Assembly (NCBI GenBank): GCA_023251725.1
Contig: JAHEYG010000009.1
Coordinates: forward strand, 1-53,762
Reading direction: 5' to 3'
Length of the DNA stretch: 53,762 nt
Origin: Sphingobacteriaceae bacterium
Lineage (GTDB): Bacteria > Bacteroidota > Bacteroidia > B-17B0 > Aurantibacillaceae
In this document: piece by piece, positions 24,014-45,520 of the stretch
How positions within the stretch are numbered: position 1 is the first letter of the stretch
Layout of the letters: every line of letters begins with the position of its first letter
Position numbers and translations under genes: made by a program
The notes under the pieces: model-generated
What the model was told of the DNA's origin: nothing
Database searches by the model: none
What the model saw: the letters and a program-made list of their open reading frames with translations, nothing else

Positions 24014-25915
24014 TTAATTAATTAATTTTTTAAATTTATTGTGCTCATCTATAAATTGTTTGAACCACAATTCTAAAGATAATAATCCCCAAATCTTACG
24101 GCCAAACTCGCCCTCTGTTTTTAAGGAATCAAAGATACTATTATAATTAAAATATTCTCTGTTTTTGTTTTTTCCATAATCAAAAACATCCTTTACGTAA
24201 TCTTTCAATTCGTTATTAATCCACATATTTAATGGTACCGGAAAACCCATTTTATTTTTACGCTCCAAAACTTCTTTAGGCAAAACATTGCCTGAGGCTT
24301 TGGTTAAAATCATTTTTAAAGTTCCGTCCTTAAATTTTTTATCGGCCGGAATAGTGGCCGCAAATTCTATAATTGAATGATCCAAAAAAGGTACGCGCGA
24401 TTCTAGACCATGCGCCATGCTCATTCTATCTTCAACATGCAACAAGGCAGGCAGCAAAGTTTTAAAATCGAAATGCGTCATTTTATCGAAATAAGATTCT
24501 TTGCCTACATTTTGACTATTAAATATTCCCGAAAAGGTTTCGTAGGGATTATAATCTCCCAGCAATTTCCAATTAATTTCGTTGTTCAAATCAGGCGCGC
24601 GATTAACTAATCTGAAATAACGTTTATCTAAAGGATCGAACATTCCGTCTTTAAAAAATTCTTTTAGTAATGGTTTATAATTTTGCAACGAAACTAAATT
24701 CGGAATAATGGATTCGTAGGTCACTACAAAATTTCCATTGTGCAAAGTATTATCAATGGCGCCTTTTATACACTGCTCGAAATAAGCAATTAAATACCTA
24801 GTGTAACCACCAAAAATTTCGTCGCCGCCTTGTCCGCCTAAAACTACTTTACGATGTTTAGCTGCCATTTTTGAAACATGGTATTGCGGAAAAGAACCCG
24901 GACCGGCCAAGGGCTGATCTAAATGATAAATTACATTTTCGATTGAATTTTGAAAATCATTAGCGGTAATGGAAATTTCGTGGAGTTTAAAATTTTTATT
25001 TTTCGCTATCATACGCGCGTAATTCGATTCGTCGAACAATTCGCCATATTCAAATTTACCGCTAAAACCCATAAAATCGGAAGTAGAATCGGCAGCCAGT
25101 GAAGAAATAATTCCCGAATCAATTCCCCCACTCACGTAAGCACCAATGGGCACATCGCTTAAGGTATGCGCCTTTACCGAATCTTCAATTAAATATTTTA
25201 ATTTCTCTGAAAAATATTCGGCGCTATTGTTCCAATCAATATTATAATACACTTCCCAATATTTATTTATTTTAATGTTGGCGTCCCTAATTATTAAAGT
25301 ATGAGAAGGTTTTAATTCGAAAATATTTTTAAAAAGCGTTTCTGTTCCCAGATACAATTGAAAATATAAATATTCTTTCAAGGCATCGGTATTTACTTCA
25401 GCTTTATTAATAAAGGGTAAAAGTGATTTTATTTCGCTCGCAAAATAAAATATATTATTTTCGATGGTATAGTAAAGTGGCTTTATACCAAAACGATCAC
25501 GGGCAATAAATAATTCGTTTTTATTTTCATCCCAAATCGCAAAAGCAAACATACCTCGTAAATGTTTTACACATTCGGCGCCGTATTTTTGATAGTACGC
25601 CAAAATAACTTCGGTGTCTGAATTTGTTTTGTAAGAATAATCTGAAAGATTTTTTTTTAATTCTTTATAATTATAAATTTCGCCATTGTAACAAATCGTT
25701 AATCCTTGCCCGTTACTCATGGGTTGATTGCCTGTAGCGAGATCAATTATGCTTAAACGCTGGTGCGCGAAACCAATTTTATCGGAAGCATTTCGCCAGG
25801 TAGTTTGAGCATCCGGACCACGGTGTTTTTGCAATTGGTTCATCACTTGCAAATGTTTTTCTAAGCCGCCTAGCGACGAATTAGATAAAGAAAATATACC
25901 GGCTATGCCACACAT
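24014..25915 (-). CDS. AsnB-like glutamine-dependent amidotransferase, copy 3 of 4
   Basis: 633 residues with Cys2 glutaminase (MCGIAGIFSL, QKHRGPDAQT, CYNGEIYNY), PP-loop YVSGGIDSGII, VVLGGQGGDEIFGGY and HGLESRVPFLDHSI. The QYHVSKMAAKHRK helix and the GQGGDE motif agree with the AsnB synthetase domain. It is 1 base downstream of a glycosyltransferase gene and 11 bases upstream of an SDR. Likely substrate: a carboxyl group on a nucleotide sugar or glycan precursor (inferred from context). Confidence 0.85.
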   Translation of the reverse strand: MCGIAGIFSLSNSSLGGLEKHLQVMNQLQKHRGPDAQTTWRNASDKIGFAHQRLSIIDLATGNQPMSNGQGLTICYNGEIYNYKELKKNLSDYSYKTNSDTEVILAYYQKYGAECVKHLRGMFAFAIWDENKNELFIARDRFGIKPLYYTIENNIFYFASEIKSLLPFINKAEVNTDALKEYLYFQLYLGTETLFKNIFELKPSHTLIIRDANIKINKYWEVYYNIDWNNSAEYFSEKLKYLIEDSVKAHTLSDVPIGAYVSGGIDSGIISSLAADSTSDFMGFSGKFEYGELFDESNYARMIAKNKNFKLHEISITANDFQNSIENVIYHLDQPLAGPGSFPQYHVSKMAAKHRKVVLGGQGGDEIFGGYTRYLIAYFEQCIKGAIDNTLHNGNFVVTYESIIPNLVSLQNYKPLLKEFFKDGMFDPLDKRYFRLVNRAPDLNNEINWKLLGDYNPYETFSGIFNSQNVGKESYFDKMTHFDFKTLLPALLHVEDRMSMAHGLESRVPFLDHSIIEFAATIPADKKFKDGTLKMILTKASGNVLPKEVLERKNKMGFPVPLNMWINNELKDYVKDVFDYGKNKNREYFNYNSIFDSLKTEGEFGRKIWGLLSLELWFKQFIDEHNKFKKLIN

Positions 25916-30793: not shown

Positions 30794-31549
30794 TCAAATT
30801 TGGTAAGAAACTTTTTCGTAATTCTTAAGATCTTCCACACTGTCAATTTCCATCCAGCCACCATTTATAAAAACAGGTTTTACGGGCATCAGTTTATCAA
30901 TTATTAATTGTATAAAAGAAGTCATATACATATTATCGAAATTTTTTCCATCGTAAAATAAATTTTTATCTAATGCATGATAAAACATTTTTATTTTATC
31001 AAGCGCTTCTTTTTTTATTTTTATTAATCCTATGTATTGTCCTTCTATTTCATCATACGAAATTGCTTTCTTTCCTAACTCACTAATATTGCCATCTGCA
31101 TTAACTTTTAAAGTTTCGGCATCTGCTAATGGGTTTTCCATTCTTATCGACCAAAGTTCTTTCCAATTTTTATCAACCACTACCGAAAATGGTGCTTCGC
31201 TTTTAATTAGTTGTTGCAACACTTCGTCTTTATAAATAATATCGGCGTACGAAATAATTATATCCTCATTAAAATCCTCTTCGGCACAAAACAATGATGC
31301 GAGCATATTAGTGGTATTGTATCGTGGGTTAGAATGAAATTTTAAAGAATAGGAATGTAAATGTTTTTGTAATACTTCTTCGGCGTAACCCGTAACAATA
31401 ACCACATTGTTTACTTTATTATTTGTTGCTGTTGAAAGAATATAATCGATGATGGGTTTCTTATTGTACTCCACCATACATTTAGGTTTGTTATTGGTAT
31501 AAGGCCTTAATCGGATACCTTCGCCTGCGGCTAAAATAATTAACTTCAT
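30794..31549 (-). CDS. Phosphoglutamine cytidylyltransferase-like protein (Cj1416 type)
   Basis: 251 residues of the LicC/PntC-type nucleotidyltransferase group: ILAAGEGIRLRPYT (5-18), NKPKCMVEY, YNTTNMLASL and SYADIIYKDE. The later phrases DAETLK, LGKKAISYDEIEGQYIG and MYMTSFIQ match, as I remember them, C. jejuni Cj1416. That enzyme joins CMP to L-glutamine phosphate to give CDP-L-glutamine. The start of the next gene, a matching amidate hydrolase, is on its upstream side with an ATGA overlap. A LicC role is less likely because no choline kinase or LicD-like gene is visible. The call is from motif recall plus the gene set. Confidence 0.75.
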   Translation of the reverse strand: MKLIILAAGEGIRLRPYTNNKPKCMVEYNKKPIIDYILSTATNNKVNNVVIVTGYAEEVLQKHLHSYSLKFHSNPRYNTTNMLASLFCAEEDFNEDIIISYADIIYKDEVLQQLIKSEAPFSVVVDKNWKELWSIRMENPLADAETLKVNADGNISELGKKAISYDEIEGQYIGLIKIKKEALDKIKMFYHALDKNLFYDGKNFDNMYMTSFIQLIIDKLMPVKPVFINGGWMEIDSVEDLKNYEKVSYQI

Positions 31550-32166
31550 AAATTAAATATTTTTTTTATTATTTGAAGTTCAAATTCCGTTTCTCTTTCG
31601 GGATGCCACATTTGCGCAAAAATGTTTTTACTCTTATGTTCCATTGCTTCGCAAAAACCATCTTCCGAAAAAGCAGAAGCCACAAAATCGCTTGGAATTT
31701 TTTCGATGCACCAATTATGATATGAATTAACAGTTCCTAATTCAGAAAGTTCATTCGCAAAACGAGAAGAATTATTTATTTTAATTTGGTGGTGAGTTCC
31801 CACATGCTTGTCGCTTTTCTTTAATTGTCCGCCAAAAGTATGACCAAGCAATTGCATCCCCCTGCAAATACCTAAAAGCGGAATATTATTTTTACTGCAA
31901 TAATTAATTATTTTTTGCTCGGTAGTATCTCTTACTTTCGAAATTTCATCATTGGATATAGTAAACAAATCATTTCCTCCGCTTAAAATAACACCTTGCA
32001 CATTTATTTCGGTTAGGAAAACTTCCGGGTCATAATAATTAGGAATAATAACAGGTAAAATATTTAATTTAGAAAACAGTTGAGCCCATCTAATATCTAA
32101 AGCATCTCTGATTTCCGGAAATGTTTCGTTTTGAATAATTCGTTGCGTGATGGCAATTTTTTTCAT
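31546..32166 (-). CDS. Class I glutamine-amidotransferase fold, gamma-glutamyl-CDP-amidate hydrolase-like (Cj1417 type)
   Basis: 206 residues. Nucleophile Cys101 in LLGICRGMQ, with His188 and Glu190 in MWHPERE, form the triad of the C26 peptidase group. The N-terminus ITQRIIQNETFPEIRDAL resembles Cj1417 as I remember it. In C. jejuni that enzyme cuts CDP-L-glutamine to glutamate and cytidine diphosphoramidate (CDPA). The overlap with the cytidylyltransferase (4 bases) puts consecutive steps in one coupled pair. A gamma-glutamyl-GABA hydrolase, PuuD-like, is the alternative, but those are longer (about 250) and belong to putrescine operons. Confidence 0.75.
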   Translation of the reverse strand: MKKIAITQRIIQNETFPEIRDALDIRWAQLFSKLNILPVIIPNYYDPEVFLTEINVQGVILSGGNDLFTISNDEISKVRDTTEQKIINYCSKNNIPLLGICRGMQLLGHTFGGQLKKSDKHVGTHHQIKINNSSRFANELSELGTVNSYHNWCIEKIPSDFVASAFSEDGFCEAMEHKSKNIFAQMWHPERETEFELQIIKKIFNL

Positions 32167-32172
32167 GCTTTT

Positions 32173-33282
32173 TTATTCTACCAACAAAGGAGTAATGATT
32201 TCATCCTGAATAGCTGTTGCTTTTGCTTTGTTCCAGTTTTTATACCCGGCCAAAATTGCTTTCAATTTTTTAATTTCATTTTCTGAAGGTCTTAGAATGT
32301 TGAAACTGCTTTCAACTTTCTTCGAATCTACCAAAAACGTTTGCAATTTTAAATCGTCAATAACATGCTTTCCATCCCTCACATGATGCGCATCCCAGTA
32401 ATTTAAATCATTTGAAGCAAACGCAGTATCAAGATTTAAATCGTAAAATGATTGTACCTCTGCTATTTTTTTTCGCAAATATTCAAATGTAGAACCCAAT
32501 CCCGAATAATAAATCATAGTTGTATTCATTCGATGATCTGGCGCCATTACCAATGAAAATTTTATACCGTTACTTTCAACATAAGATTTAAAAACCTTTA
32601 TTTTATTAATTGCCTCATCTATTGAAGCCGACTTCCTAAAAGCATTACTCGCATACAATCTTCTGTCAATATTATTAAGTACAATATAATCTGCTAAAAC
32701 TTTTTTAAAACTATAAGATGTATCATGTTTGTAATGATTTTGAGTTCTGGTACCATTCAAATTAAATTGCTGTTCCCATTTTGTATTTGATTTTCCCTTC
32801 TCAATATAATAAAACGCATCATCATAAGCATTTTTGTTTAAGTACTGATAAATAAAATCAAAGAAAATATTACTATTGCTTATAACAAATCGGTTGAAAT
32901 AATTTTCACAATTCCGCGACGGGTTAAAGGAGTAAAAAGAAAGGAAAAAAGTTATTTCTTTCGGGTGCTTGTTAACCATTAATTTTCCAAATTCAATTTG
33001 TTCTTGAATCGTCGAACTTTCAATTCCCATTGAATAAACATTTTTATTAGGATACATATACTCGATATCATAATAATTTACCACCGAAGAACCAAGAAAA
33101 CCAAAATCTAAGGTTTTATACTTTTTAAAAAAATTATACGAATACAAATGGTAATTCGGAAGTGTTTTTCGTTTTACTTCATTTCCTATCAATACATATG
33201 GGTCAACAATAGCCATAAATAAAGAATAAGATAAAGTAACCATTCCAAGTATTAATACTGTTCTATAAAAAAGTTTACGCAT
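32173..33282 (-). CDS. Membrane-anchored SGNH-like protein, partner of MBOAT O-acyltransferase
   Basis: 369 residues with an N-terminal membrane anchor (about 8-28). SGNH block I appears as FGFLGSSVV (60-68), and a C-terminal D-x-x-H-like segment is WDAHHVRDG near residue 300. The bulk would be periplasmic. Proteins of this layout (AlgJ/AlgX, PatB, DltD) pair with MBOAT membrane proteins and move an acyl group, usually acetyl, onto the exported glycan. The MBOAT gene is 3 bases upstream. Confidence 0.75.
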   Translation of the reverse strand: MRKLFYRTVLILGMVTLSYSLFMAIVDPYVLIGNEVKRKTLPNYHLYSYNFFKKYKTLDFGFLGSSVVNYYDIEYMYPNKNVYSMGIESSTIQEQIEFGKLMVNKHPKEITFFLSFYSFNPSRNCENYFNRFVISNSNIFFDFIYQYLNKNAYDDAFYYIEKGKSNTKWEQQFNLNGTRTQNHYKHDTSYSFKKVLADYIVLNNIDRRLYASNAFRKSASIDEAINKIKVFKSYVESNGIKFSLVMAPDHRMNTTMIYYSGLGSTFEYLRKKIAEVQSFYDLNLDTAFASNDLNYWDAHHVRDGKHVIDDLKLQTFLVDSKKVESSFNILRPSENEIKKLKAILAGYKNWNKAKATAIQDEIITPLLVE

Positions 33283-33285
33283 TTA

Positions 33286-34770
33286 TCAGAATTGAAAATA
33301 AATAAACTGCTGGCGGTTATCATCGTACTGACCAAAAAACAATATACTAATAATAAGTAGATAATAAATGCCTGTTCTTAACCAAACAGGTTTTTCAGCT
33401 ACATATTTTCGAATGCTTTTATTACGTTGCATAAAGTAAACACATTCCATAATGAAAACCGGCAGAATAAAAAGAATAAGCGTTAATTTACCTTTTGATA
33501 AATATAATAAGGGTAAGCGAACATTATTCTCATTTGAAACGACAGCTTTTAAATCATGAGCGAATCCTACAAAAATTGTTTTTGCTATATAAAATGCTTC
33601 CCAAATATTATTTGCTCTAAAAAATATCCATCCAATTGCAACCAAACAAAATGTTAATGCAACTTGCCACACTTTATTAATGCCGGGCCTTTGTGTTAAA
33701 CCAATAAATTTATTTATCGACTCTCTCATTTTTTTTGTGAGTTCTGCAAATATTAAATAAAAACCATTAAGTGCCCCCCAAAAAACAAAAGTCCAGTTGG
33801 CACCGTGCCATAAACCGCTTATTAAAAAAGTAACAAACAAATTAAAATATTGTTTAGTTTTGGAAACCCTATTACCTCCTAATGAAATATAAACATAATC
33901 TTTAAACCAGGTTGATAGCGATATGTGCCAGCGTTTCCAGAATTCTGAAATGCTTTTTGAGAAATAAGGTCGCTTAAAATTTTGCATGAGTGTGAATCCC
34001 ATCACTTGTGCCGAACCAATGGCGATATCTGAATACCCCGAAAAATCGCAATATATCTGATAAGTAAAAAATACGGTTGCAATTATTAATGGAAAACTGC
34101 TGTAGTGATGTGGATCGCCGTAAACCTGATTTACGTAAACGGCCAATCTATCGGCGATAACCACTTTTTTAAACATGCCCCAAGCCATTAATTTTAATCC
34201 GTCGCTTACTCTTTTGTAATCAAAATTATGTTTCACATAAAATTGCGGTAATAAATTTTGAGGTCTTTCAATTGGTCCTGCCACCAATTGAGGATAAAAC
34301 ATTACGTACAAGGAATAAATTCCAAAATGTTTTTCGGCTTTTTGATTTCCGCGATACACTTCAATAACATAACTTAAACTTTGAAACGTGTGAAATGATA
34401 AACCAATTGGTAAAATAATATTTAGTACACTTATTGGGTACGACCAATGAAAAAACTCGGCTACACGCGCCATATTTGTATTGAAGAAATTAAAGTATTT
34501 AAAAACAAACAATACCAGGCAGGTCGAAATTATGCTTATAACGAGATATAGTTTTCTTTTTTTGCCTTCCGATTTTTCTATCCAAATTGCAGCCAAATAA
34601 TCGATTACAACAGTAATAAGTAAAATAAAAATATAGGCCGGAATAAAGGCCATATAAAAAAAACAGCTTGCTGCCAGTAACATGCACCATCTGTATTTAT
34701 GAGGTATAGCAAAATACAATGTGCTTATTACAACAAAAAACCAAATAAAATCGAAAGAGTTAAATAGCAT
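33286..34770 (-). CDS. MBOAT family membrane O-acyltransferase (AlgI/PatA/DltB-like)
   Basis: 494 residues with about ten or more membrane segments, beginning FDFIWFFVVISTLYFAIP. Family phrases are LPIGLSFHTFQSLSYVIEVYRG, LVAGPIERPQNLLPQF, FCDFSGYSDIAIG-like CDFSGYSDIAIGSAQ, FWKRWHISLSTWFKDYVYISLGG, and the catalytic-histidine segment SGLWHGANW near residue 330. It carries an activated acyl group from the cytoplasm across the membrane for the SGNH partner 3 bases downstream. The pair interrupts the phosphoramidate-like gene set, which suggests co-assembly of decorations rather than a separate operon. Confidence 0.9.
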   Translation of the reverse strand: MLFNSFDFIWFFVVISTLYFAIPHKYRWCMLLAASCFFYMAFIPAYIFILLITVVIDYLAAIWIEKSEGKKRKLYLVISIISTCLVLFVFKYFNFFNTNMARVAEFFHWSYPISVLNIILPIGLSFHTFQSLSYVIEVYRGNQKAEKHFGIYSLYVMFYPQLVAGPIERPQNLLPQFYVKHNFDYKRVSDGLKLMAWGMFKKVVIADRLAVYVNQVYGDPHHYSSFPLIIATVFFTYQIYCDFSGYSDIAIGSAQVMGFTLMQNFKRPYFSKSISEFWKRWHISLSTWFKDYVYISLGGNRVSKTKQYFNLFVTFLISGLWHGANWTFVFWGALNGFYLIFAELTKKMRESINKFIGLTQRPGINKVWQVALTFCLVAIGWIFFRANNIWEAFYIAKTIFVGFAHDLKAVVSNENNVRLPLLYLSKGKLTLILFILPVFIMECVYFMQRNKSIRKYVAEKPVWLRTGIYYLLIISILFFGQYDDNRQQFIYFQF

Positions 34771-34773
34771 TAA

Positions 34774-37140
34774 TTAAGAAATAATTTTTACTTGTTTGTT
34801 CAGGCAATCCAGTTCCAATAATTTTGCTTTGCCCCATAAATTAAAATTACTTTCGCCTGCGCCTATAATGGCAGGTATTCCCATTTCGGCGCAACGCACG
34901 GCCATGTGCGAATTGGCTCCGCCAAATTGCGTAACTAATCCGCCAATATTTTTGGTAAATAAAAAATCGTAGCCAGGGTCGGCCGATTTTATAAATATTA
35001 TTTTATTTTTTAAAGTAGCCGTTTCGATATTTATTTCACCAATGGTTTCGCTACAGACACTCTTTATGGTCACAAAATTGGGCTCCTCCGAATGCAGAAA
35101 ATAAAAATAAACATCATCTGCTTTAGTTATTAAACTCGGAAGTTTTACTGCTTTGGTATAATTATAACTACGTTTATTTTTTTCAATATCACTCTCAAAT
35201 ATTTCTTTCACGTCTCTATAATCCAGTGAAGCGTATAAACCGATAATAGTTTTTATGTCTAAATAAACCAAATCATCACGCTTTACACCATATTTTATCG
35301 AGAGCTCTTCAATTAATGAAAGTATTCTACTAAGTGATTTAGTGAAAACAAATTTAGAATTCTCGCGACCTTCAATAGAAATTTTTATAAACTCAATTAA
35401 CTGTGTTGCTGTAATGTTGAGCCCATACTTTTTAATTAAGATCTCCAATTTATTAATTTGTTTCATCGAAAATTTAAAATTGGAAGGTGCAATAGCATTT
35501 GTGGTTTTTTTGGAAAAATAAGAATCGAAGTTTTCATCATATCTTTTCGATAGAATATCATACGTTCCGGGTCTTAAATGTCCGTATTTTTTTAAAAACT
35601 CTTTTTTGGAGATTTTATTTTTGCTGTAGTGCACCAGATCATTATTGAGATCCTTAGTAATAGTGTGCATCGAACCGATAAACAAATTATATTCTTTGTT
35701 GCTAATAATTTTTAATTCAACGAAGGATCTTAGAAATTGTGTTGCAATAAAAGCCGAACGGGCAATTCCCGCAAAAGGTAAGGTGCCGTATCGTTTACAA
35801 TCTTCCAACAACCAATATATTTTATCGACTATAGATAATTTCGACGAAATTATTTTCTCGTATTTCTCTTTTAAAATTTCGGTTTGCAACAGATCTTTTT
35901 TATAGAGTCCGGTTTCGGGATTAATTATTTTATTGGTTATGGCTAAAAGTGTTTTCTCGATGCTAATAATTTCATCTTTCGAAAAATTTGCTTTGCTTAA
36001 ATCGTTACTAAGTTTTTCAGGCAAATTAAAATAAAAACACGAATGAACAATTTCAAATTCCACTTTATCATGAAATACCGGAAACGAAATAAGTTTAGCG
36101 AGATAATGGTCTACTAATTTTTTGGCAATTTTTTCATTTAGTTCTTTTGGGATAAAAGAATTAAAGTCAACTCTCACATCAATATACGGAACGCCCAAAT
36201 AAAGAAGCATTAAGGGATGCGAACGCAAATTACGGTAACCGTAATTATCGCGCTGATAAGCCCAAATACTATCGGTAATCATTTCTTTATATAATGAAGC
36301 AGCGAGATGTTTTGGTTTTAACCCGATAATTTCGGCAGGATTCCAATCGGGCATTACACCGTAAACCGCATTATCACCAAAAAGATTTGGATGAGGAGAA
36401 GAAAGTTTATTTATTTTTTTATGAATTTTAAGGAGCGTTTCTTTTAGATCAATTTGCGACAAATCTTCTTTTGCAACAGTACTGATTCTTCTTACCTGAA
36501 AAATGTAAAGTGTTTCATTGCTAAAAGCAAATTCCACATCGAGATGAGGAAAATTAAAAATAATTTCAAGTTCTTTTAAAGCTGAAATAAGTTTCGAAAG
36601 TTTTTTGTGTGCACAATTTACCGGCGAATTTTTAAAGTAAACAAACGTTTTTAAATTTTTTCCGGTACCGTCGGTCACCGAATCGCTTTTGCCACTTTCG
36701 TCGTAATTAATAATATAATAAGGCGCAAAGGTATCCATATCGGAAGTAAAAGCTACCCCGGCCATACTAATATTATCGAGTTGCGGCTGAACAAAAACTT
36801 CATCACCTGAGTTATTATTTTTATATGAAGAAATTACTTTTTGGATGGCTGCTTTTATTTTATCGGGAGCTTTTATTGAAACATTTAAAACACTTTCGAA
36901 ATGCCCAGCATTAGAAATTTCAGAGCCGTCTTCACTTAAGGAAGAAGAACGAACCACCAAAAATTTACTTTTAAACTTTTTTTGAATACTGCTAATAATA
37001 AAATCAGCATTTTTTTTGTAATCCGAAACTTTAAATAAATACAAAGGTAACACTTTGGCCCGACTTATCACCTTTGATAAATCATCGAGCGTTCTTGCTT
37101 TAGAAGAAAATTTAAGTTTACTTTTTTTCTTTGACAACAT
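34774..37140 (-). CDS. L-glutamine kinase-like dikinase (Cj1418 type, PEP-synthase-related)
   Basis: 788 residues. An N-terminal ATP-binding domain like that of PEP synthase has VVRSSSLSEDG (62-72), DEVFVQPQ (113-120) and FQVRRIS (214-220). A long central region without PEP-synthase similarity follows. The C-terminal phosphohistidine domain has GGANSHMAVRCAEMGIP with His745. No PEP-binding TIM barrel is present after it, as in Cj1418 and rifampin phosphotransferase. Cj1418 phosphorylates the side-chain amide of L-glutamine, the first step to phosphoramidate, with a catalytic His near the same position as I recall. The partners at 30794-32166 and 37901-38410 make this the best reading. Product untested. 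Confidence 0.75.
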   Translation of the reverse strand: MLSKKKSKLKFSSKARTLDDLSKVISRAKVLPLYLFKVSDYKKNADFIISSIQKKFKSKFLVVRSSSLSEDGSEISNAGHFESVLNVSIKAPDKIKAAIQKVISSYKNNNSGDEVFVQPQLDNISMAGVAFTSDMDTFAPYYIINYDESGKSDSVTDGTGKNLKTFVYFKNSPVNCAHKKLSKLISALKELEIIFNFPHLDVEFAFSNETLYIFQVRRISTVAKEDLSQIDLKETLLKIHKKINKLSSPHPNLFGDNAVYGVMPDWNPAEIIGLKPKHLAASLYKEMITDSIWAYQRDNYGYRNLRSHPLMLLYLGVPYIDVRVDFNSFIPKELNEKIAKKLVDHYLAKLISFPVFHDKVEFEIVHSCFYFNLPEKLSNDLSKANFSKDEIISIEKTLLAITNKIINPETGLYKKDLLQTEILKEKYEKIISSKLSIVDKIYWLLEDCKRYGTLPFAGIARSAFIATQFLRSFVELKIISNKEYNLFIGSMHTITKDLNNDLVHYSKNKISKKEFLKKYGHLRPGTYDILSKRYDENFDSYFSKKTTNAIAPSNFKFSMKQINKLEILIKKYGLNITATQLIEFIKISIEGRENSKFVFTKSLSRILSLIEELSIKYGVKRDDLVYLDIKTIIGLYASLDYRDVKEIFESDIEKNKRSYNYTKAVKLPSLITKADDVYFYFLHSEEPNFVTIKSVCSETIGEINIETATLKNKIIFIKSADPGYDFLFTKNIGGLVTQFGGANSHMAVRCAEMGIPAIIGAGESNFNLWGKAKLLELDCLNKQVKIIS

Positions 37141-37143
37141 TTT

Positions 37144-37893
37144 TTACTTCAACTGTGCCACCCAAATTCTTGTGGTATATGGTATTTCAATTTCAGTCAC
37201 TTTTAAAGAATCAAGATAAGTCGAAATTTTATTTACGATAATTCCAAATTTTTCTCCCGCTTGTCTTTCAAGTGTTGCGTGCGATCTCCACGCTTCAACA
37301 CATTCTGCAATCGTTTGAAAATGCTTTACGTTTCCTTCTATCTTATGAACTTCTTTAAATAATCCACTTTTATTTATTTCTTCGGTTTGATCTTCACGAC
37401 GTGTTCCATAACCGTAACCATCAATTTCATTTTTAATAATTGACTCAATGGCCGATTGAATTTTATCATTAACATCTCTGTGGTTCCACATGCAAGCAAA
37501 CCATCCGCCGGATTTTAAAATTCTTTTTGTTTCTTTTAGAGCCAATTGCCGGTCACATACATTAAACGAAGAACCAAAAGTCACCATATCAAATGCAGAA
37601 TTTTCCTGACCTGTATTTTCGCCGGTACCTTCGCTCCAGTTAGAATGATTATATTTTTTTGTGCGGATAATTCCGTTCGCTCTCATAGCATCATTTGGTT
37701 CAACTGCCACCACGTTGTAACCCCTTTCTAGTAACATCAAAGTTAAGTGTGCAACTCCGGCACCAACATCGCATATTTTTGCTCCTTTTTGCACGCCAGC
37801 TTTTTCAAGCATTGAATTAATTGCAGTTTCAGAATAATCCGGACGTTTCAGGTAGGCATCCGCTAAATTTGTGTAATCCCAATTTGTTTTCAT
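37144..37893 (-). CDS. SAM-dependent methyltransferase, candidate phosphoramidate O-methyltransferase (Cj1419/Cj1420-like)
   Basis: 249 residues. Motif I is ICDVGAGVAHLT (40-51), the acidic residue is in VAVEPND, and the post-motif phrases are FGSSFNVCD and FACMWNHRD, followed by YGYGTRREDQ. The last three are what I associate with the methyltransferases of the C. jejuni methyl phosphoramidate locus (Cj1419, Cj1420). It sits between the glutamine kinase (3 bases) and CDPA kinase (7 bases), so methylation of the phosphoramidate oxygen is a natural role. Only one clear member is visible here, where C. jejuni has two. Confidence 0.7.
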   Translation of the reverse strand: MKTNWDYTNLADAYLKRPDYSETAINSMLEKAGVQKGAKICDVGAGVAHLTLMLLERGYNVVAVEPNDAMRANGIIRTKKYNHSNWSEGTGENTGQENSAFDMVTFGSSFNVCDRQLALKETKRILKSGGWFACMWNHRDVNDKIQSAIESIIKNEIDGYGYGTRREDQTEEINKSGLFKEVHKIEGNVKHFQTIAECVEAWRSHATLERQAGEKFGIIVNKISTYLDSLKVTEIEIPYTTRIWVAQLK

Positions 37894-37900
37894 TTTGTTT

Positions 37901-38410
37901 TTATTTTACGAGGTTTATTATTTTATTGATATTTACTTTTATTTCCTTTTTTGAATTATTTGTAAGATGAAGGTGACAATTTATTGGCTTGTCGAAACTC
38001 ATATCAACACCAACCACATTTTTTATTTTTCCTTTTATCGCTTTTGAATAAAGTTTTTTTTGATCACGTTTTATTAATACTTCTAAATCAGTATCAATAA
38101 ATATTTCGTAATATTTTTTAGTATTTAAACGGTTAAACCGATGTATTTCTTTGAATAAAGAAATAGTAGAGCAAACCACATTGATATTTTGACCTGTCAT
38201 AAACTTACACATGCGTGCAATCTGGAAAGCAACGTTAAGCCTGGCTTTTTTATCATGACCAAAAGTTTGCCCGGTAATTTCACGGTAAGTATCCCCGTCA
38301 ATAAATACAGTGTTATTTTGTTTTTTCTTTAAGGCTTTATAAACCGATTTTCCAATAGTGGTTTTACCACTTCCTGCCAATCCGGTTATCCAAATTAATT
38401 TTCCACTCAT
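37901..38410 (-). CDS. CDP-amidate kinase-like P-loop kinase (Cj1415 type, APS-kinase fold)
   Basis: 169 residues from ATG 38410. The P-loop is TGLAGSGKTT (9-18), then FIDGDTYREITG and CSTISLFKEI, RDQKKLYSKA and NVVGVD. True APS kinases have an ISPYR-like segment where this protein has STISLFKE. That difference and the LYSK/NVVGVD end match Cj1415, which phosphorylates the 3' hydroxyl of cytidine diphosphoramidate. A TTG start at 38422 would overlap the upstream gene by 10 bases; ATG 38410 gives the expected MSGKLIWITG and a 2-base gap. No CysD/CysN homologue was seen, which also argues against PAPS supply. Confidence 0.75.
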   Translation of the reverse strand: MSGKLIWITGLAGSGKTTIGKSVYKALKKKQNNTVFIDGDTYREITGQTFGHDKKARLNVAFQIARMCKFMTGQNINVVCSTISLFKEIHRFNRLNTKKYYEIFIDTDLEVLIKRDQKKLYSKAIKGKIKNVVGVDMSFDKPINCHLHLTNNSKKEIKVNINKIINLVK

Positions 38411-38412
38411 TT

Positions 38413-39324
38413 TTATTTCCAATCTTCTATTGAAAAATCAATTATTGTTTTTAATTGCTCCATGTCTTTCCTAAAAAAATCCTGCAAATACTTTCTGCAA
38501 TCTTCAGGCATGGATTCTTTTTCAGTTTTTATATTTGATTTAAGCTGATGAAACATTTTTAAGTCCTCGTTTTTTTCAAGGTATTGTATAGGGTCTTCTT
38601 CGCGTCGAGTTGCTTCCACAAAAAAGTCAAATCTGTTTTGAAAATATTTTCTTAATTCAACCTGTAGTTTTCTATCTTTTACACTTAAACTTGTAAAACT
38701 TGGCGGCATAACAACTGTGTGATTTTCGTTGACCTCAAGAAAACGAAATACTTTTTTAAAATCTTCCTGCAAATTTTTACCAAACAATTCTGATTTCAGC
38801 ATCAGCATTTGTTCTTTTGGGAAATATTCCAAGAACTTGCTCAACATTTTATAATATAAACCTCGTCCGGTATAATTGTGTGGTTGAATCTCGGCCCAAA
38901 TGCCGGTTTGCGCTTTAATTCGCTCCTCTTCCTTTTCAAGAACTTCTAAAAAACTTAATTCTTCCAAACCTTCAATAACTGTATACCGGTAATTTCCCCA
39001 AGCTCTTTCGATTGGGTTGCGAAGCATAAAAATTAATTTAATATTGGGAAGGTGTTTATGTGTACGTTGTGCAACATCGGGACCAAACATATATGAAGAA
39101 GAGCGTTCGCCAATTGCCTTTTCGGTTTTCACATCTTTAAAATAAGTTTCCAAATAATAACTGAATGGTTTTTCGTATTCCCACGACTTGTAAAAATAAT
39201 GTGGTTCAGGTCGCATTTTTTTTGGAAGATATATCTCCGGATGATTCATCATTCCTGCTGATAAAAAAGAAGTTCCTCCGGCTGCGGCACCACATATTAA
39301 AAAATTTGGTACATTTTTTTCCAT
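38413..39324 (-). CDS. Sulfotransferase-fold protein; candidate phosphoramidoyl transferase
   Basis: 303 residues. The donor 5' loop is ICGAAAGGTSFL (10-21). In usual PAPS sulfotransferases this reads GAQKAGTT or KSGTT with an essential basic residue, but here Ala15 takes the lysine place. The 3'-phosphate loop LRNPIERAWGNY (101-112) keeps the Arg but has Gly110 where Ser is normal. A GERSSSYM segment is present. The gene ends 2 bases before the CDPA kinase start. 3'-phospho-CDPA has the shape of PAPS, so transfer of phosphoramidate is an attractive but untested role. A real sulfotransferase with a variant loop is the alternative. Confidence 0.6.
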   Translation of the reverse strand: MEKNVPNFLICGAAAGGTSFLSAGMMNHPEIYLPKKMRPEPHYFYKSWEYEKPFSYYLETYFKDVKTEKAIGERSSSYMFGPDVAQRTHKHLPNIKLIFMLRNPIERAWGNYRYTVIEGLEELSFLEVLEKEEERIKAQTGIWAEIQPHNYTGRGLYYKMLSKFLEYFPKEQMLMLKSELFGKNLQEDFKKVFRFLEVNENHTVVMPPSFTSLSVKDRKLQVELRKYFQNRFDFFVEATRREEDPIQYLEKNEDLKMFHQLKSNIKTEKESMPEDCRKYLQDFFRKDMEQLKTIIDFSIEDWK

Positions 39325-39327
39325 AAT

Positions 39328-41226
39328 TTAATTTTCTATTTTTTCGTTATTTAAAAATAATCGGCACCACCATTCAAAATTCATGAACGACCAAATTAAT
39401 AAACGGTGATTTATTCTTTGATTGGTGTGTTCATTTACAATTTTCTCAACATACTTTGGATCCAAGAATTCTGATGAAACTGTTTTCCGGTTCAATAAAA
39501 GTTCTTTTATGTAAGCGGCATTCTCTCCCCGGTACCAACTTTCATCCGGCGCCGAGAATCCTTGCTTTTTTCGATTGATAATCGATTCGGGTAAAATATC
39601 AAGCATCGCCTTTCGTAAAACATTTTTTCCGTCATCAAATTCTTTATACGCTTTCCGCTTAAAACCAAAAGTATTTTCATCAAGTCGTTTATTGGCCTCT
39701 AAATTTCCCAACTTATGGCGAATAGGAATTTTCTGAGAAAAATTAACCAAATCATTATCCAAAAAAGGAAATCGTTCTTCCAAGCCATTGGCCATACTTA
39801 ATTTATCTCCCACCAATAATAATCCCGATAAAAAAGTTTTAATTTCGAAATACAAACTGTTTTGAATATGCTCTTCGGGGGTGTTATACTTTAATTTTTT
39901 ATTAAACGTAAATACCCTCTCAAAAACTTTTCGCGGATCATTGATATCAATCTTATCAAAAATATTTTTCTGAAATAATTCTTTCTTCCCTTCATCAGGC
40001 ACAAGTCGCTGCCAAAATCCATAATAATTATTAAAAAAAGATTGCTGATCGAGCGATTGAAAAACACGATAATACCGCCACGGATAACCGCCATACAACT
40101 CATCGCCACCAGTGCCCTGCAAACAAACTTTTACAAATTTAGAAGCAAGCCGGCTTATATAATAATTAGGATAACTCATTCCCACTCTTAAATCTTCTAA
40201 ATGATAAACCACTCTCGGCAACGACCAACGCAAATCGCCGGCATTAATTACTTGTTCGTAATGTTCGGTTTTAAAATAATTAGCCATCAACTCTGCATCT
40301 CTTCTTTCATCATAATTACTTTCTACGCCGGTAACCTGACTCAATTCAAATCCAGCCGTAAATGTAGTGAGTCGTTTTACGTGCATGCTCGCAATAGCAG
40401 TTATGCTTCCAGAATCCATTCCTCCCGACAAATAACTTCCCACCGGAACATCAGCTACCATTTGCCTTCCCACTGCAATTTTAAATAAACGTTCCGTTTC
40501 ATTTTTTGCGTCTTCAAAAGTCATTGTGTTATCGGGTTCCGAAAAATCGTAATCCCACCACGAATTGTGTTTTATAGAATGAACTTCGCCCACATTTATT
40601 TTTACCGTATTAGCCGGCGGCAACATTACCACTCCTTTAAAAAGGGTTTGATAAGTAAATAAATTCTGAAAAGTAAAATATTCGTTTAAAGCCAACAAAT
40701 TTAGTTCTACTTTAAACGAAGGGTGCGCCATAAAAGCTTTAATTTCAGAACCAAATAATAAAGTTTTATTATTGATGTAATAATACAAAGGTTTTATCCC
40801 ATAACGGTCTCTCGACAAGTACAGTGTTTTGGTTTGCCGGTTCCAGGCAGCCACGGCAAACATGCCGTCAAACCGTTCAAAATACGAAGGGCCATAAGCC
40901 GATAGTCCTTCACAAATTACTTCGGTATCGGTGGTTGAAATAAATTTATGTCCTTTTATTTTTAATTCTTCCTTCAACTCGCGGTAATTATAAATACATC
41001 CGTTAAAAACAATAGTCCAGTTCCCGTCTTTCGACAACATAGGTTGCGAACCTTTATCTGAAGTATCTAAAATAGCGAGGCGCCGATGACCCAACGCAAT
41101 GTTTTCTTCTTCAAAAATTCCTTCACCATCTGGTCCTCGATGCGCAATGCGCTGCATCATGGCTTTAATGGTATTGGAGGCAACCGCCTCACCATTCAAA
41201 TTAAATATTCCGGCGATGCCGCACAT
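39328..41226 (-). CDS. AsnB-like glutamine-dependent amidotransferase, copy 4 of 4
   Basis: 632 residues. Cys2 glutaminase (MCGIAGIFNL, IAHRGPDGEGIF, FNGCIYNY), PP-loop YLSGGMDSGSI, VCLQGTGGDELYGGY and NGLEERFPFLDNDL. The NGCIYN form, where GEIYN is usual, puts a Cys in the conserved NGEIYNY position. It is 3 bases upstream of the sulfotransferase-fold gene and 3 bases downstream of a sugar aminotransferase. It may form an amide on a sugar acid of the same repeat unit. The possible link with phosphoramidate chemistry is positional only. Confidence 0.85.
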   Translation of the reverse strand: MCGIAGIFNLNGEAVASNTIKAMMQRIAHRGPDGEGIFEEENIALGHRRLAILDTSDKGSQPMLSKDGNWTIVFNGCIYNYRELKEELKIKGHKFISTTDTEVICEGLSAYGPSYFERFDGMFAVAAWNRQTKTLYLSRDRYGIKPLYYYINNKTLLFGSEIKAFMAHPSFKVELNLLALNEYFTFQNLFTYQTLFKGVVMLPPANTVKINVGEVHSIKHNSWWDYDFSEPDNTMTFEDAKNETERLFKIAVGRQMVADVPVGSYLSGGMDSGSITAIASMHVKRLTTFTAGFELSQVTGVESNYDERRDAELMANYFKTEHYEQVINAGDLRWSLPRVVYHLEDLRVGMSYPNYYISRLASKFVKVCLQGTGGDELYGGYPWRYYRVFQSLDQQSFFNNYYGFWQRLVPDEGKKELFQKNIFDKIDINDPRKVFERVFTFNKKLKYNTPEEHIQNSLYFEIKTFLSGLLLVGDKLSMANGLEERFPFLDNDLVNFSQKIPIRHKLGNLEANKRLDENTFGFKRKAYKEFDDGKNVLRKAMLDILPESIINRKKQGFSAPDESWYRGENAAYIKELLLNRKTVSSEFLDPKYVEKIVNEHTNQRINHRLLIWSFMNFEWWCRLFLNNEKIEN

Positions 41227-42386: not shown

Positions 42387-43364
42387 TTATTTAATATTTT
42401 TATTTCGCCAATCGATTAATCTTAAAAGTCCCTGCTCGAGCGAAAATTTATGTTTAAACCCCAATTCTTTTTCGGCTTTTACTGCCGAACCAATTCTGTT
42501 TTGCACAAGCGCTCGCGCGTCGTCGGCGCTATAAGGAACGTAGGTAACTTTTAAAATTGATTTTTTCAATCTTAATATTGTATCGCATAATTGTTTAATG
42601 GTAGTTTGAACCTCTGTTCCTACATTATAAAATCCAAATTTCATATCACTTTTTAATGCATTAACATTACAAAGTGCAACATCTTCCACATAAACAAAAT
42701 CGTAAGCCTGACTACCGTCACCATTAATGGTTGGTGCTTCGTTAGCATCAATTTTATTTAACATAATGGGAACCACGCCGCTATACACCGCGTGCTGATC
42801 TTGTCCGGGACCGTACACATTCATATAACGCAAACCAATTACCGAGAGGCCATAACGGTCGTTAAACGCTGTACACATGGCTTCGCCGGCTATTTTTGTA
42901 GAACCATAAAAATTTTTATTATTGAAAGGATGATTTTCGGACATAGGAACTTCAACAGCATCACCATAAACAGAAGCGGATGAAGAATAAATTAATTTTT
43001 TTACATTATTTTTTACGCAGGCTTCTAATACATTAAACGTTCCGGCAATATTTACATCAAACGCAGTTCTTGGATAATCTTTACAATGTAGGAGCCACAT
43101 GGCAGCCAAATGAAAAACATAATCCACGCCTTTCATGGCGTCGTTTAAAATATCAATTTCGCGAACATCGCCACCCATTGGATAAATATAACAGCGTTTG
43201 TCTTTTAATGATTCGGCAATATTATCCATTTTACCGCGCGCAAAATTATCGTAAATAATAATTTCTTTTACATTTTCTTTTAATAATTCGGCCACTACAA
43301 AACCGCCAATGAATCCGGCGCCTCCGATTACTAAAATTTTTTTGTCTTTAAGATCTATACTCAT
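42387..43364 (-). CDS. Extended SDR, UDP-sugar 4-epimerase/dehydratase-like
   Basis: 325 residues: VIGGAGFIGG (12-21), IYDNFARGKMDNI, FHLAAMWLLHCKD, SSSASVYGDA, FYGSTKIAGE with the YxxxK pair, RYMNVYGPGQDQHAVYSGV and YDFVYVEDVA. The GGxGFIGG, NFARG and GPGQDQ phrases suggest a nucleotide-sugar epimerase of the UDP-glucose/UDP-glucuronate group. The start overlaps the Wzt stop by 4 bases, so it is translated with the exporter. Confidence 0.8.
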   Translation of the reverse strand: MSIDLKDKKILVIGGAGFIGGFVVAELLKENVKEIIIYDNFARGKMDNIAESLKDKRCYIYPMGGDVREIDILNDAMKGVDYVFHLAAMWLLHCKDYPRTAFDVNIAGTFNVLEACVKNNVKKLIYSSSASVYGDAVEVPMSENHPFNNKNFYGSTKIAGEAMCTAFNDRYGLSVIGLRYMNVYGPGQDQHAVYSGVVPIMLNKIDANEAPTINGDGSQAYDFVYVEDVALCNVNALKSDMKFGFYNVGTEVQTTIKQLCDTILRLKKSILKVTYVPYSADDARALVQNRIGSAVKAEKELGFKHKFSLEQGLLRLIDWRNKNIK

Positions 43365-44653
43365 ATTTTTTTAATTTTCCAGTTAGTGGTTGGTTCAACA
43401 TATCCCATCACCATGTTCCAGGGATAATCTCCTTCTTTGTTTTTAGTAAGAGAAGTTACACTAAAATAATAGGTGCCTTCTACCAAATCGATGCTTGCTC
43501 CGTTCTTAAAATGAAAAATAGAAAGGTTGATACTGTATTTTTTAGGCATTAAATGAATGTCGTACTCTACTTCGAAATCATAAGTGCCGGGTTCCAAAAT
43601 TCGCGATTCATAATTATTTTTTCCTTCGGCCGAAAAAGTTACCTGTTCTCCATTAGAATTCACTAAACATATCCATATTCCTGCATCTTCAATTTTGGAA
43701 TAAACTTCTAAAGTAATTTTTATTTTAAATTTCTGCTTAAAATACAATTCGTCGGTTTGTCTTTCATCGTCATCAATAACAAAAGCACTTGTAAATTTAG
43801 CTTCACCGCTATTGAAAACTCTTACATCATCTGAAATGATTCCTGAATTATCAAAATCTTTCCCATCGAAAAAATATTTATCAATTGTTTTTTGAACGTC
43901 GCCTTCGTAATTAACCAAACCGTTCTTCAATAAAATGCCTTTGGTACAAAGCGATTTTATGGCGGCCATATTATGACTTACAAAAAGTACAGTTCGCCCT
44001 TCTTTACCTGCCACCGCGCCTACTTTACTTAAACATTTTTTTTGAAAATCGGCATCTCCTACCGAAAGCACTTCATCTAAAATTAAAATTTCAGATTCGA
44101 GATGCGCGGCTACACCAAATGCCAGGCGCACATACATACCGCTGCTGTATCGCTTAACCGGAGTATCAATATATCTTTCCACGCCACTGAAATCAACAAT
44201 CTCATCAAATTTTTTAAGAATTTCTTTTTTTGTCATTCCCAATATCGCTCCGTTCAAAAAAATATTTTCTCGTCCGGTTAAATCAGGATGAAAACCGGTT
44301 CCTACTTCCAGCAAACTGGCAATGCGCCCTTTCACTTTCATTTCGCCGGTAGTAGGGCCTGTTACTCTTGATAATATTTTTAATAATGTAGATTTTCCGG
44401 CGCCGTTTTTTCCTACAATTCCCAACACATCTCCCTGATTAACTTCGAAACTAATATCTTTAAGTGCCCAAACAAAATCGCTGCTTCCTTTTTTACTTCT
44501 GTCGTTCTCTTCTCCCACTTTTAAATACGGATCTTCTTTTCCTCTTATTTTATACCACCAACGATTTACATCGTGCGAAAATGTTCCGGTGCCAATTTGA
44601 CCCAGGCGGTATTGCTTTCCTAAATTTTCAATTTTTATTACTGCTTCGCTCAT
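43361..44653 (-). CDS. wzt: Polysaccharide ABC exporter ATPase with C-terminal domain (Wzt-like)
   Basis: 430 residues. Walker A is VGKNGAGKST (80-89), the signature is YSSGMYVRLAFG, and Walker B is LILDEVLSVGD, followed by an H-loop FVSHN. After about residue 265 a beta-rich extension of roughly 165 residues (ending WKIKKI) resembles the Wzt C-terminal carbohydrate-binding domain. In E. coli O8/O9a this domain recognises the modified non-reducing end of the finished chain. The partner permease is 15 bases upstream. Finding this pair indicates ABC-dependent export. Confidence 0.9.
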   Translation of the reverse strand: MSEAVIKIENLGKQYRLGQIGTGTFSHDVNRWWYKIRGKEDPYLKVGEENDRSKKGSSDFVWALKDISFEVNQGDVLGIVGKNGAGKSTLLKILSRVTGPTTGEMKVKGRIASLLEVGTGFHPDLTGRENIFLNGAILGMTKKEILKKFDEIVDFSGVERYIDTPVKRYSSGMYVRLAFGVAAHLESEILILDEVLSVGDADFQKKCLSKVGAVAGKEGRTVLFVSHNMAAIKSLCTKGILLKNGLVNYEGDVQKTIDKYFFDGKDFDNSGIISDDVRVFNSGEAKFTSAFVIDDDERQTDELYFKQKFKIKITLEVYSKIEDAGIWICLVNSNGEQVTFSAEGKNNYESRILEPGTYDFEVEYDIHLMPKKYSINLSIFHFKNGASIDLVEGTYYFSVTSLTKNKEGDYPWNMVMGYVEPTTNWKIKKI

Positions 44654-44668
44654 TTCGGTGCCGAATAA

Positions 44669-45520
44669 TTATACATTATCCATAAACGTTTTTTCTACTC
44701 TGTTAAATTGCATGATAGAAATAATAACTAACACTAACATAAAAATTCCGCTGTAGCACAAAGCGGCCCAGCTGAAGTAACCATTTCCTAAAAAAATATA
44801 TTTGAAAGATTCTATTACTGAAGAAACAGGATTGAGTAAAATAAATAGTTTAAATTTTTCGGGAACAATGGTCATTGGATAAACTATCGGACTCGCATAC
44901 ATTAATAATTGAATACCAAATCCCACCAAAAAAGTAAAATCGCGGTACTTTGTTGTGAGCGACGAAATTAAAATTCCGAAACCTAAACCCAAACCGGCCA
45001 TTATTAAAACAAGAATTGGAAACAACCATAACATTGACCAGTGAGGATGAATTGTGCTATTGGTGTTTAAATAATAAATCCAAACTCCGAAAAATAAAAC
45101 AACTTGTATTGCTAGTTTAATAAGATTGGAAATTAAAACAGATATTGGAATGACTAATCGCGGGAAATAAACTTTGCCAAAAACAGCCGCATTAGCAACA
45201 AACGTATTTGAAGTTTTATTTAAGCAATCGGCGAAGTAGGTCCATAAAGTAATTCCTGACAAATAAAATAAAACAGGGGGAACGGTATCAGTACTTATTT
45301 TAGCAAGGTTTCCAAATATTATAGTGAACGTTAAAGTAGTGATAATGGGTTGTAAAAAAAACCAAACCGGACCTAAAATAGTTTGTTTGTAAACCGAAAC
45401 AAAATCGCGACGTACTAATAGGAATAACAGATCGCGGTATTTCCAAATGGAAGCAATATCAATTTTGTACCATCTGTTTTGCGGCTTAATTACAAGATCC
45501 CATTGTTGTTGCTTTGTCAT
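44669..45520 (-). CDS. wzm: Polysaccharide ABC exporter permease (Wzm-like)
   Basis: 283 residues, six hydrophobic segments, opening WYKIDIASIWKYRDLLFLLVRRD and then YKQTILGPVWFFLQP, the ABC-2 type permease phrase. Later LLMYASPIVYPMTIVP and LNPVSSVIESFKYIFLG are also standard for Wzm/KpsM-type proteins. It forms the channel for glycan export with the Wzt ATPase. The gene is 2 bases after the antiterminator stop. Confidence 0.9.
   Translation of the reverse strand: MTKQQQWDLVIKPQNRWYKIDIASIWKYRDLLFLLVRRDFVSVYKQTILGPVWFFLQPIITTLTFTIIFGNLAKISTDTVPPVLFYLSGITLWTYFADCLNKTSNTFVANAAVFGKVYFPRLVIPISVLISNLIKLAIQVVLFFGVWIYYLNTNSTIHPHWSMLWLFPILVLIMAGLGLGFGILISSLTTKYRDFTFLVGFGIQLLMYASPIVYPMTIVPEKFKLFILLNPVSSVIESFKYIFLGNGYFSWAALCYSGIFMLVLVIISIMQFNRVEKTFMDNV

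Follow-up and report, generated by a model that had tools for sequence, protein, structure and literature searches.

Does this member of the Bacteroidota carry the pathway by which Campylobacter jejuni makes the donor for O-methyl phosphoramidate (MeOPN), and which enzyme would spend that donor? The question is raised by a stretch of 53,762 nucleotides (contig JAHEYG010000009.1 of assembly GCA_023251725.1, Sphingobacteriaceae bacterium), hereafter the window, in which an earlier note had recognized counterparts of the C. jejuni genes Cj1415–Cj1418. From the comparisons described below, the operon at 30794–39324 probably makes a phosphoramidate donor and uses it for a surface glycan. The presence of a Campylobacter-type donor pathway among its predicted proteins is very likely, and a sulfotransferase homologue beside the donor genes is the candidate transferase.

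The predicted donor pathway

All the open reading frames (ORFs) lay on the minus strand, and the ORF check returned the coordinates of the earlier note (Table 1). The gaps between the successive genes from 30794 to 41226 were −4 to +7 bases. The genes from the cytidylyltransferase to the sulfotransferase therefore read as one operon, in the 5'-to-3' order sulfotransferase, cytidine diphosphoramidate (CDPA) kinase, methyltransferase, glutamine kinase, MBOAT protein, 369-aa protein, hydrolase and cytidylyltransferase. The four donor genes were thus found where they had been placed, in one tight operon. The kinase ORF has an alternative TTG start at 38422, which falls within the end of the upstream gene; the ATG at 38410 is therefore preferable.

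For comparison, GTDB species genomes were scanned with the kinase alignment as anchor, which gave at least 561 relatives of the glutamine kinase. Eighty of these were examined, and four loci from a phylum survey brought the neighbourhoods to 84. In C. jejuni (locus L056), a DUF2972 gene was followed by two methyltransferases, glutamine kinase, hydrolase, cytidylyltransferase and kinase, in that order. BLAST identity of the window proteins to this locus was 47% for the glutamine kinase, 39% for the hydrolase, 48% for the cytidylyltransferase, 45% for the kinase and 44% for the methyltransferase. This bore out the claimed match to the Cj1415–Cj1418 set (39–48% identity, common best models), and also the Cj1419/Cj1420-like methyltransferase that the note had seen at 37144–37893.

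Among the NCBIfam models, PRK05849 matched the glutamine kinase with 985 bits; the best phosphoenolpyruvate (PEP)-synthase-type model reached 73 and TIGR01418 36. The hydrolase was best matched by NF045546, 'gamma-glutamyl-CDP-amidate hydrolase' (182 bits), with 86 bits for the runner-up and 27 for a PuuD-type model. The CDPA kinase gave 207 bits with PRK05541 (cut-off 127); the genome's own CysC (L115) preferred apsK, with 189 bits. The C. jejuni L056 proteins scored 1173, 331 and 291 bits with PRK05849, NF045546 and PRK05541, respectively. The cytidylyltransferase, for which no specific curated model was among the NCBIfam matches listed, scored 223 bits with its C. jejuni counterpart (BLAST) and 63 with LicC (phmmer), its nearest solved structure.

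The Pfam domains of the glutamine kinase were PPDK_N and PEP-utilizers. A C-terminal PEP-binding barrel was unmatched in Pfam at E 0.001, in agreement with the earlier description of a kinase without a triosephosphate isomerase (TIM) barrel. The residues named there were also present at their positions: the hydrolase triad Cys101/His188/Glu190 was invariant across six aligned rows, and His745 of the glutamine kinase, a phosphohistidine candidate, across five.

In a tree of 57 proteins of the adenosine 5'-phosphosulfate (APS) kinase family, 46 of the 49 cluster kinases, including that of the window, fell on the Cj1415 side of a branch with support 100/95. Across this branch lay the genome's own CysC, six other canonical CysC and three cluster kinases (L041, L049 and L051), which are still counted below among the separate CDPA kinases. 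The row CAN_L122 of the tree is the cluster kinase of the genome of L095 itself, not a canonical APS kinase. In the reciprocal comparison with the PEP synthase, LicC, PuuD and CysC families, models, BLAST and tree sided with the Campylobacter enzymes, as had been claimed. The canonical APS kinase of the genome lies on contig C4 (L115:1795-2325) and is distinct from the window kinase.

The details of each donor step are known from C. jejuni. By that scheme, the glutamine kinase would phosphorylate L-glutamine to N-phosphoglutamine, and the cytidylyltransferase would join phosphoglutamine to cytidine monophosphate (CMP), giving CDP-glutamine. The hydrolase would take off glutamate to leave CDP-amidate, and the APS-kinase-like enzyme would phosphorylate the ribose at its 3' position, giving 3'-phospho-CDP-amidate. 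These four steps are summarized for C. jejuni in the accessible parts of PMC11800397 and PMC6429109. The methyltransferase would probably cap the phosphoramidate, at a step left unspecified here. We favour O-methylation with some reserve, because a methyltransferase recurs in the neighbourhoods. Against it, knockouts of Cj1419/Cj1420 were reportedly unchanged, according to the available portion of PMC11800397; that of PMC3546167 speaks of no relevant observations on such knockouts.

It is possible, if doubtful, that a related donor is made from a substrate other than L-glutamine, or that the phosphoramidate stays unmethylated, so that the glycan group differs from MeOPN. The C. jejuni cytidylyltransferase is reportedly promiscuous with manganese, judging by a title cited in PMC10714395, and unmethylated phosphoramidate has been reported in C. 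jejuni (PMC9561416, in the part available). The methyltransferase also varies at this place: that of the window is 39% identical to its counterpart in G379, a genome of the same family, and 86% to that of the Sphingobacteriaceae locus L035. On the other hand, the hydrolase triad is kept, and the best fit of this enzyme is the gamma-glutamyl-CDP-amidate model.

A candidate transferase in the sulfotransferase superfamily

The earlier note, whose reading of the donor enzymes is well supported, overlooked the likely transferase, the gene at 38413–39324. Its product is a sulfotransferase homologue by Pfam (PF00685, E 3.2e-8) and by a near full-length match to PDB 3rnl (E 2.8e-27). In sulfotransferases, the Lys of the donor loop (K-x-G-T) contacts the 5'-phosphosulfate of 3'-phosphoadenosine 5'-phosphosulfate (PAPS), and R-[DN]-P is the 3'-phosphate motif. 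The window protein has the domain with its R-[DN]-P motif and lacks the donor-loop Lys.

The predicted donor, 3'-phospho-CDP-amidate, would resemble PAPS in having a nucleotide 5'-phosphate that bears the movable group, together with a 3'-phosphate. Because of this shared layout, and because an APS-kinase homologue would add the 3'-phosphate, we infer transfer by a sulfotransferase fold. The homologue would bind the donor and move phosphoramidate to a sugar hydroxyl, a role that we consider fairly likely. The accessible parts of the MeOPN literature consulted give no mechanism for this step.

Sulfotransferase genes were enriched beside the operon. Sulfotransferase models matched at least 18 of 173 near genes (7 and 11 in two scans) and at most 3 of 145 far genes (Fisher p ~0.002, taking 3 far matches). 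Near genes came from 54 loci, with Campylobacter and Helicobacter left out, and were either part of the operon or no more than two genes away from it; they comprised 172 of the 204 listed and the L057 gene in its correct frame. The 32 dropped were picked by eye and were mostly very long, short, or from GC-rich loci with doubtful frames. The far genes were a random 145 of 297, on either strand, from 40 loci of the near set, and their bound follows from sulfotransferase models lying outside the 25 commonest there.

Besides the window, 19 loci from 11 phylum-level groups were counted as having a sulfotransferase gene. Fourteen were checked singly, three of them weak (L067, L077 and L097), and five (L035, L036, L039, L050 and L066) were assigned through similarity to a checked one. 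In the order of listed genes, the sulfotransferase directly preceded the kinase in 10 of the 19, as in the window.

Within the family of the window's organism, only two of 61 genomes, its own (G000) and G379, had the glutamine kinase. The same two alone had a close sulfotransferase (69% identity in G379), beside the rest of the operon. The other sulfotransferases of the family (26–37%) were one in G000, encoded on a separate contig, and those of four genomes that lack the glutamine kinase.

The sulfotransferases of the window, L035, G379 and the planctomycete locus L057 formed one clade (98/97), with Ala, Ala, Ala and Pro, respectively, in place of the donor-loop Lys. In nine background sulfotransferases of the window's bacterial family the residue was Lys in eight and Arg in one. 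Direct linking by BLAST or jackhmmer joined the window protein to a cluster neighbour in L035 only; L057, masked there because frames had been chosen greedily in GC-rich loci, was shown by plain BLAST.

The known MeOPN transferases Cj1421 and Cj1422 carry DUF2972 (PMC5808241, in the part available). DUF2972-cluster genes were found in 16 Campylobacter and Helicobacter loci (Pfam on two), in most cases no more than 5 kb from the glutamine kinase. DUF2972 (PF11186) was unmatched in all seven operon-bearing genomes searched outside the Campylobacterota, including the window's own genome (75% complete) and G379 (100% complete); the three Campylobacterota genomes with a match had been chosen since their loci already showed DUF2972.

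In the DUF2972 alignment R-D-P was invariant, with a near-invariant Gly in the preceding loop. Three different sulfotransferase sets ranked first when DUF2972 was compared with 33 neighbour profiles (p 0.0004 to 0.0086; p 0.25 for a control family); one sulfotransferase set was included twice under two names, and the mixed BLAST clusters 0 and 3 were excluded. A trimmed DUF2972 profile gave as its top PDB match a heparan sulfate 3-O-sulfotransferase (E 0.049), with both motifs in register. Kinship between DUF2972 and the sulfotransferases is thus suggestive at the level of profiles. The window protein showed no BLAST clustering with DUF2972 proteins, and nowhere in the accessible parts of the literature found was DUF2972 called a sulfotransferase.

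Several points weigh against the reading of the operon given here. One two-sequence sulfotransferase set ranked last among the 33 profiles, and the full-length DUF2972 profile placed the heparan sulfate 3-O-sulfotransferase (E 0.68) below two unrelated PDB proteins. The hhalign probability of DUF2972 with the best sulfotransferase sets was 26–35%, and with the window's sulfotransferase group 4–10% (p 0.0033 to 0.012). Nine cluster sulfotransferases of other subfamilies retain a donor-loop Arg, so that loss of the basic residue is not general. The hydrolase stays under the NF045546 cut-off of 250 bits. Finally, 4 of 13 Campylobacter strains carrying the genes gave no MeOPN signal (PMC3907429, in the part available). 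Since carriers of the genes can lack the signal, we say only that the window's glycan may be expected, from its genes, to carry phosphoramidate.

The remaining points concern sulfation. The genome has CysD and a true, canonical CysC, both on contigs other than the window's, can probably make PAPS judging by these genes, and has further sulfotransferases elsewhere; ATP sulfurylase was present in 15 of the 19 sulfotransferase-flanked genomes (in that of L062 as two CysD pieces under the cut-off). The donor pathway could then be real and its neighbour an ordinary PAPS sulfotransferase that sulfates the same glycan, with another, unrecognised enzyme transferring phosphoramidate. We regard this as unlikely. 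The close sulfotransferase occurs only in the two family genomes with glutamine kinase, sulfotransferase genes are enriched beside the operon, and the donor-loop Lys has been lost. In addition, four of the 19 genomes (L037, L039, L066 and L077), though metagenome-assembled genomes (MAGs) or bins, had no clear match to either kind of ATP sulfurylase, and the 75%-complete genome had no DUF2972 match. Simple sulfation by an APS kinase and a sulfotransferase, a separate candidate, was weakened but keeps some probability: the genome encodes a CysC and a CysD of its own, and an ATP sulfurylase is missing from only four of the 19 genomes.

For the candidate transferase and its relatives as a whole, we lean slightly towards a wider interpretation. 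Sugar phosphoramidate transfer would be a branch of sulfotransferase chemistry, and DUF2972 a diverged arm of the same superfamily. Many phyla would make 3'-phospho-CDP-amidate with an APS-kinase homologue for sulfotransferase-superfamily enzymes, some of which would have altered their donor loop.

Distribution and surroundings of the operon

The 80 relatives examined belonged, by record title, to 18 phylum-level groups: Bacteroidota, Campylobacterota, Nitrospirota, Spirochaetota, Ignavibacteriota, Bacillota, Planctomycetota, Pseudomonadota, Myxococcota, Omnitrophota, Elusimicrobiota, Patescibacteria, Acidobacteriota, Verrucomicrobiota, Cloacimonadota, Nitrospinota, Thermodesulfobacteriota and Balneolota. 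In the phylum survey, 5 of 296 genomes were above the cut-off, the window's own included.

Among the 84 neighbourhoods, many of them interrupted by contig ends, the hydrolase was found in 76, the cytidylyltransferase in 76 and both in 74. A methyltransferase relative was found in 58, and 50 had the CDPA kinase as a gene of its own; 46 had all four donor genes, and 34 had these plus the methyltransferase. Seventy-eight loci gave a cytidylyltransferase match; the best one reached at least 131 bits in 76 of them, and 14 further matches had 79 bits or less. In 11 of the 84 the CDPA kinase was fused to the glutamine kinase as its N-terminal domain (BLAST in all 11, Pfam in the four tested), and no separate CDPA kinase was present in these loci within the stretch read. 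With the kinase separate or fused, the full donor set was found in 56 of the 84 loci, from 15 named groups plus a single locus from the phylum of the window. Neither of the two named Bacteroidota loci showed the full set in the stretch read, L035 because its contig ends; the glutamine kinase of L035 is 74% identical to that of the window.

A chance grouping of four unrelated enzymes of housekeeping type (PEP synthase, LicC, PuuD/C26 peptidase and APS kinase) is hardly credible: Pfam gives only these superfamilies, but the reciprocal NCBIfam models and the kinase tree reject the assignment, the fusions speak against it, and the co-occurrence of hydrolase and cytidylyltransferase in 74 of 84 neighbourhoods excludes a chance neighbourhood. 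It is therefore well supported that the window presents a new occurrence of a known donor pathway, within a family far wider than Campylobacter.

The fusion loci (L062, L074, L078, L081, L082, L083, L084, L090, L091, L096 and L102) belong to Acidobacteria, Verrucomicrobia and Gammaproteobacteria, and the fused APS-kinase-like domain replaces the separate CDPA kinase. Three glutamine kinases from the window's phylum (L031:8816-11926, L032:8799-11927 and L033:8865-12011) have 1036–1048 aa with an extra N-terminal domain, matched by a MobA-like nucleotidyltransferase model in L033 alone (E 1.2e-5). No CDPA kinase was found in these three loci, which perhaps make a different donor. The Helicobacter loci L086, L089 and L073 have a glutamine kinase gene, the first two with a DUF2972-cluster gene nearby; in the stretch read they showed no hydrolase, CDPA kinase or good cytidylyltransferase match. 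The relatives also include the strains Natronincola peptidivorans DSM 18979 and Fusibacter bizertensis WBS; hydrolase, cytidylyltransferase and kinase were present in their loci, and a sulfotransferase was not identified there. In 14 loci, a gene of the inositol-monophosphatase cluster (e.g. L034:14316-15110; Pfam on one) is no further than 5 kb from the glutamine kinase. CysQ removes the 3'-phosphate from 3'-phosphoadenosine 5'-phosphate, and by analogy this enzyme might strip it from spent 3'-phospho-CMP.

Table 1. Predicted genes of the operon and of the adjoining export unit
Predicted product	Coordinates	Strand	Basis
CTP (cytidine triphosphate):phosphoglutamine cytidylyltransferase, Cj1416-like, 251 aa	30794..31549	-	NTP_transf_3; C. 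jejuni L056 48%, 223 bits; G379 69%
gamma-Glutamyl-CDP-amidate hydrolase, Cj1417-like, 206 aa	31546..32166	-	NF045546 182 bits (cut-off 250); C. jejuni 39%; Cys101/His188/Glu190
369-aa protein, unknown family	32173..33282	-	within operon; same place in G379, 49%
MBOAT membrane O-acyltransferase (DltB-like)	33286..34770	-	PF03062 E 1.8e-30; TIGR04091 150 bits, under its cut-off
L-Glutamine kinase, Cj1418-like, 788 aa	34774..37140	-	PRK05849 985 bits (cut-off 501); C. jejuni 47% over 777 aa; His745
S-Adenosylmethionine (SAM) methyltransferase, Cj1419/Cj1420-like	37144..37893	-	44% to C. jejuni methyltransferase adjoining its glutamine kinase
CDPA kinase, Cj1415-like, APS-kinase family	37901..38410	-	C. 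jejuni 45%; PRK05541 207 bits; tree
Proposed phosphoramidate transferase, sulfotransferase superfamily	38413..39324	-	PF00685 E 3.2e-8; PDB 3rnl E 2.8e-27
Asparagine-synthase-like amidotransferase, next operon gene	39328..41226	-	groups with three other AsnB-like genes of the window; G379 84%, same place
Glycan exporter, made up of a Wzt-like ABC ATPase that carries Wzt_C and an ABC-2 membrane protein	43361..45520	-	PF00005 and PF14524, PF01061

A Pfam scan covered 20 genes of the window. Around the operon lie a DegT-type aminotransferase, epimerase-type enzymes, a Wzt-like ABC transporter with Wzt_C and a Wzz/tyrosine-kinase-like protein. Judged by these predicted neighbours, the region is a glycan locus, as the earlier note had it.

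The MBOAT gene also occurs in L035 (79%, partial) and G379 (79%). Together with the 369-aa protein, which had no match in Pfam or NCBIfam and is possibly its partner, it sits between the glutamine kinase and the hydrolase both here (32173–34770) and in G379 (L135:4619-7215). This pair might acylate the same glycan. The locus also contains four asparagine-synthase-like genes (17067–18974, 20172–21926, 24014–25915 and 39328–41226; a BLAST cluster, two confirmed by Pfam), which perhaps amidate several sugars.

Comparison with known systems

MeOPN has so far been treated as a Campylobacter speciality, and a review from 2022 describes the glutamine kinase as specific to C. jejuni (PMC9561416, in the part available); relatives of this kinase here span 18 phylum-level groups. 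Phosphoramidate glycans may thus be widespread and masked by the names PEP synthase, APS kinase and sulfotransferase. If so, glycans decorated through P–N bonds would be a common, unseen surface chemistry, and a 'sulfotransferase' gene beside a CDPA kinase should not signal sulfated glycans. If the transferase is a sulfotransferase relative, direct tests of its fold, donor and likely chemistry become possible. The literature search, beyond whose reach most subscription papers lay, returned nothing that unites three or more of phosphoramidate, sulfotransferase, glutamine kinase and APS kinase. New here is the pairing of a different candidate transferase with the known donor pathway.

An O-methyl phosphoramidate cluster has been described in an archaeal extrachromosomal element, the Cobalt Borg (PMC12660748, in the part available), so a cluster beyond Campylobacter has some precedent. 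By its published description, the Borg shares with the window genes like that of CTP:phosphoglutamine cytidylyltransferase in a non-Campylobacter glycan region, and differs in being an archaeal extrachromosomal element.

The PAPS sulfotransferases (PDB 3rnl and the heparan sulfate 3-O-sulfotransferases) share with the window protein their family, the R-N-P motif and, for 3rnl, a near full-length match. Unlike them, the window protein has Ala for the donor-loop Lys, and its gene adjoins that of the CDPA kinase, with CysD and CysC on other contigs.

Cj1421 and Cj1422 resemble the window protein in their proposed common role, in adjoining the donor genes, and in the Gly-containing loop followed by R-[DN]-P that both families possess. 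The window protein differs in being a recognisable member of Sulfotransfer_1/3, and the profile links to DUF2972 are weak.

The closest known system is the C. jejuni Cj1415–Cj1418 set. Here, too, four donor enzymes and a Cj1419/Cj1420-like methyltransferase are encoded in one operon of a glycan locus. The window differs in belonging to another phylum (39–48% identity), in having the MBOAT and 369-aa proteins between the glutamine kinase and the hydrolase, and in coming from a genome where DUF2972 was unmatched.

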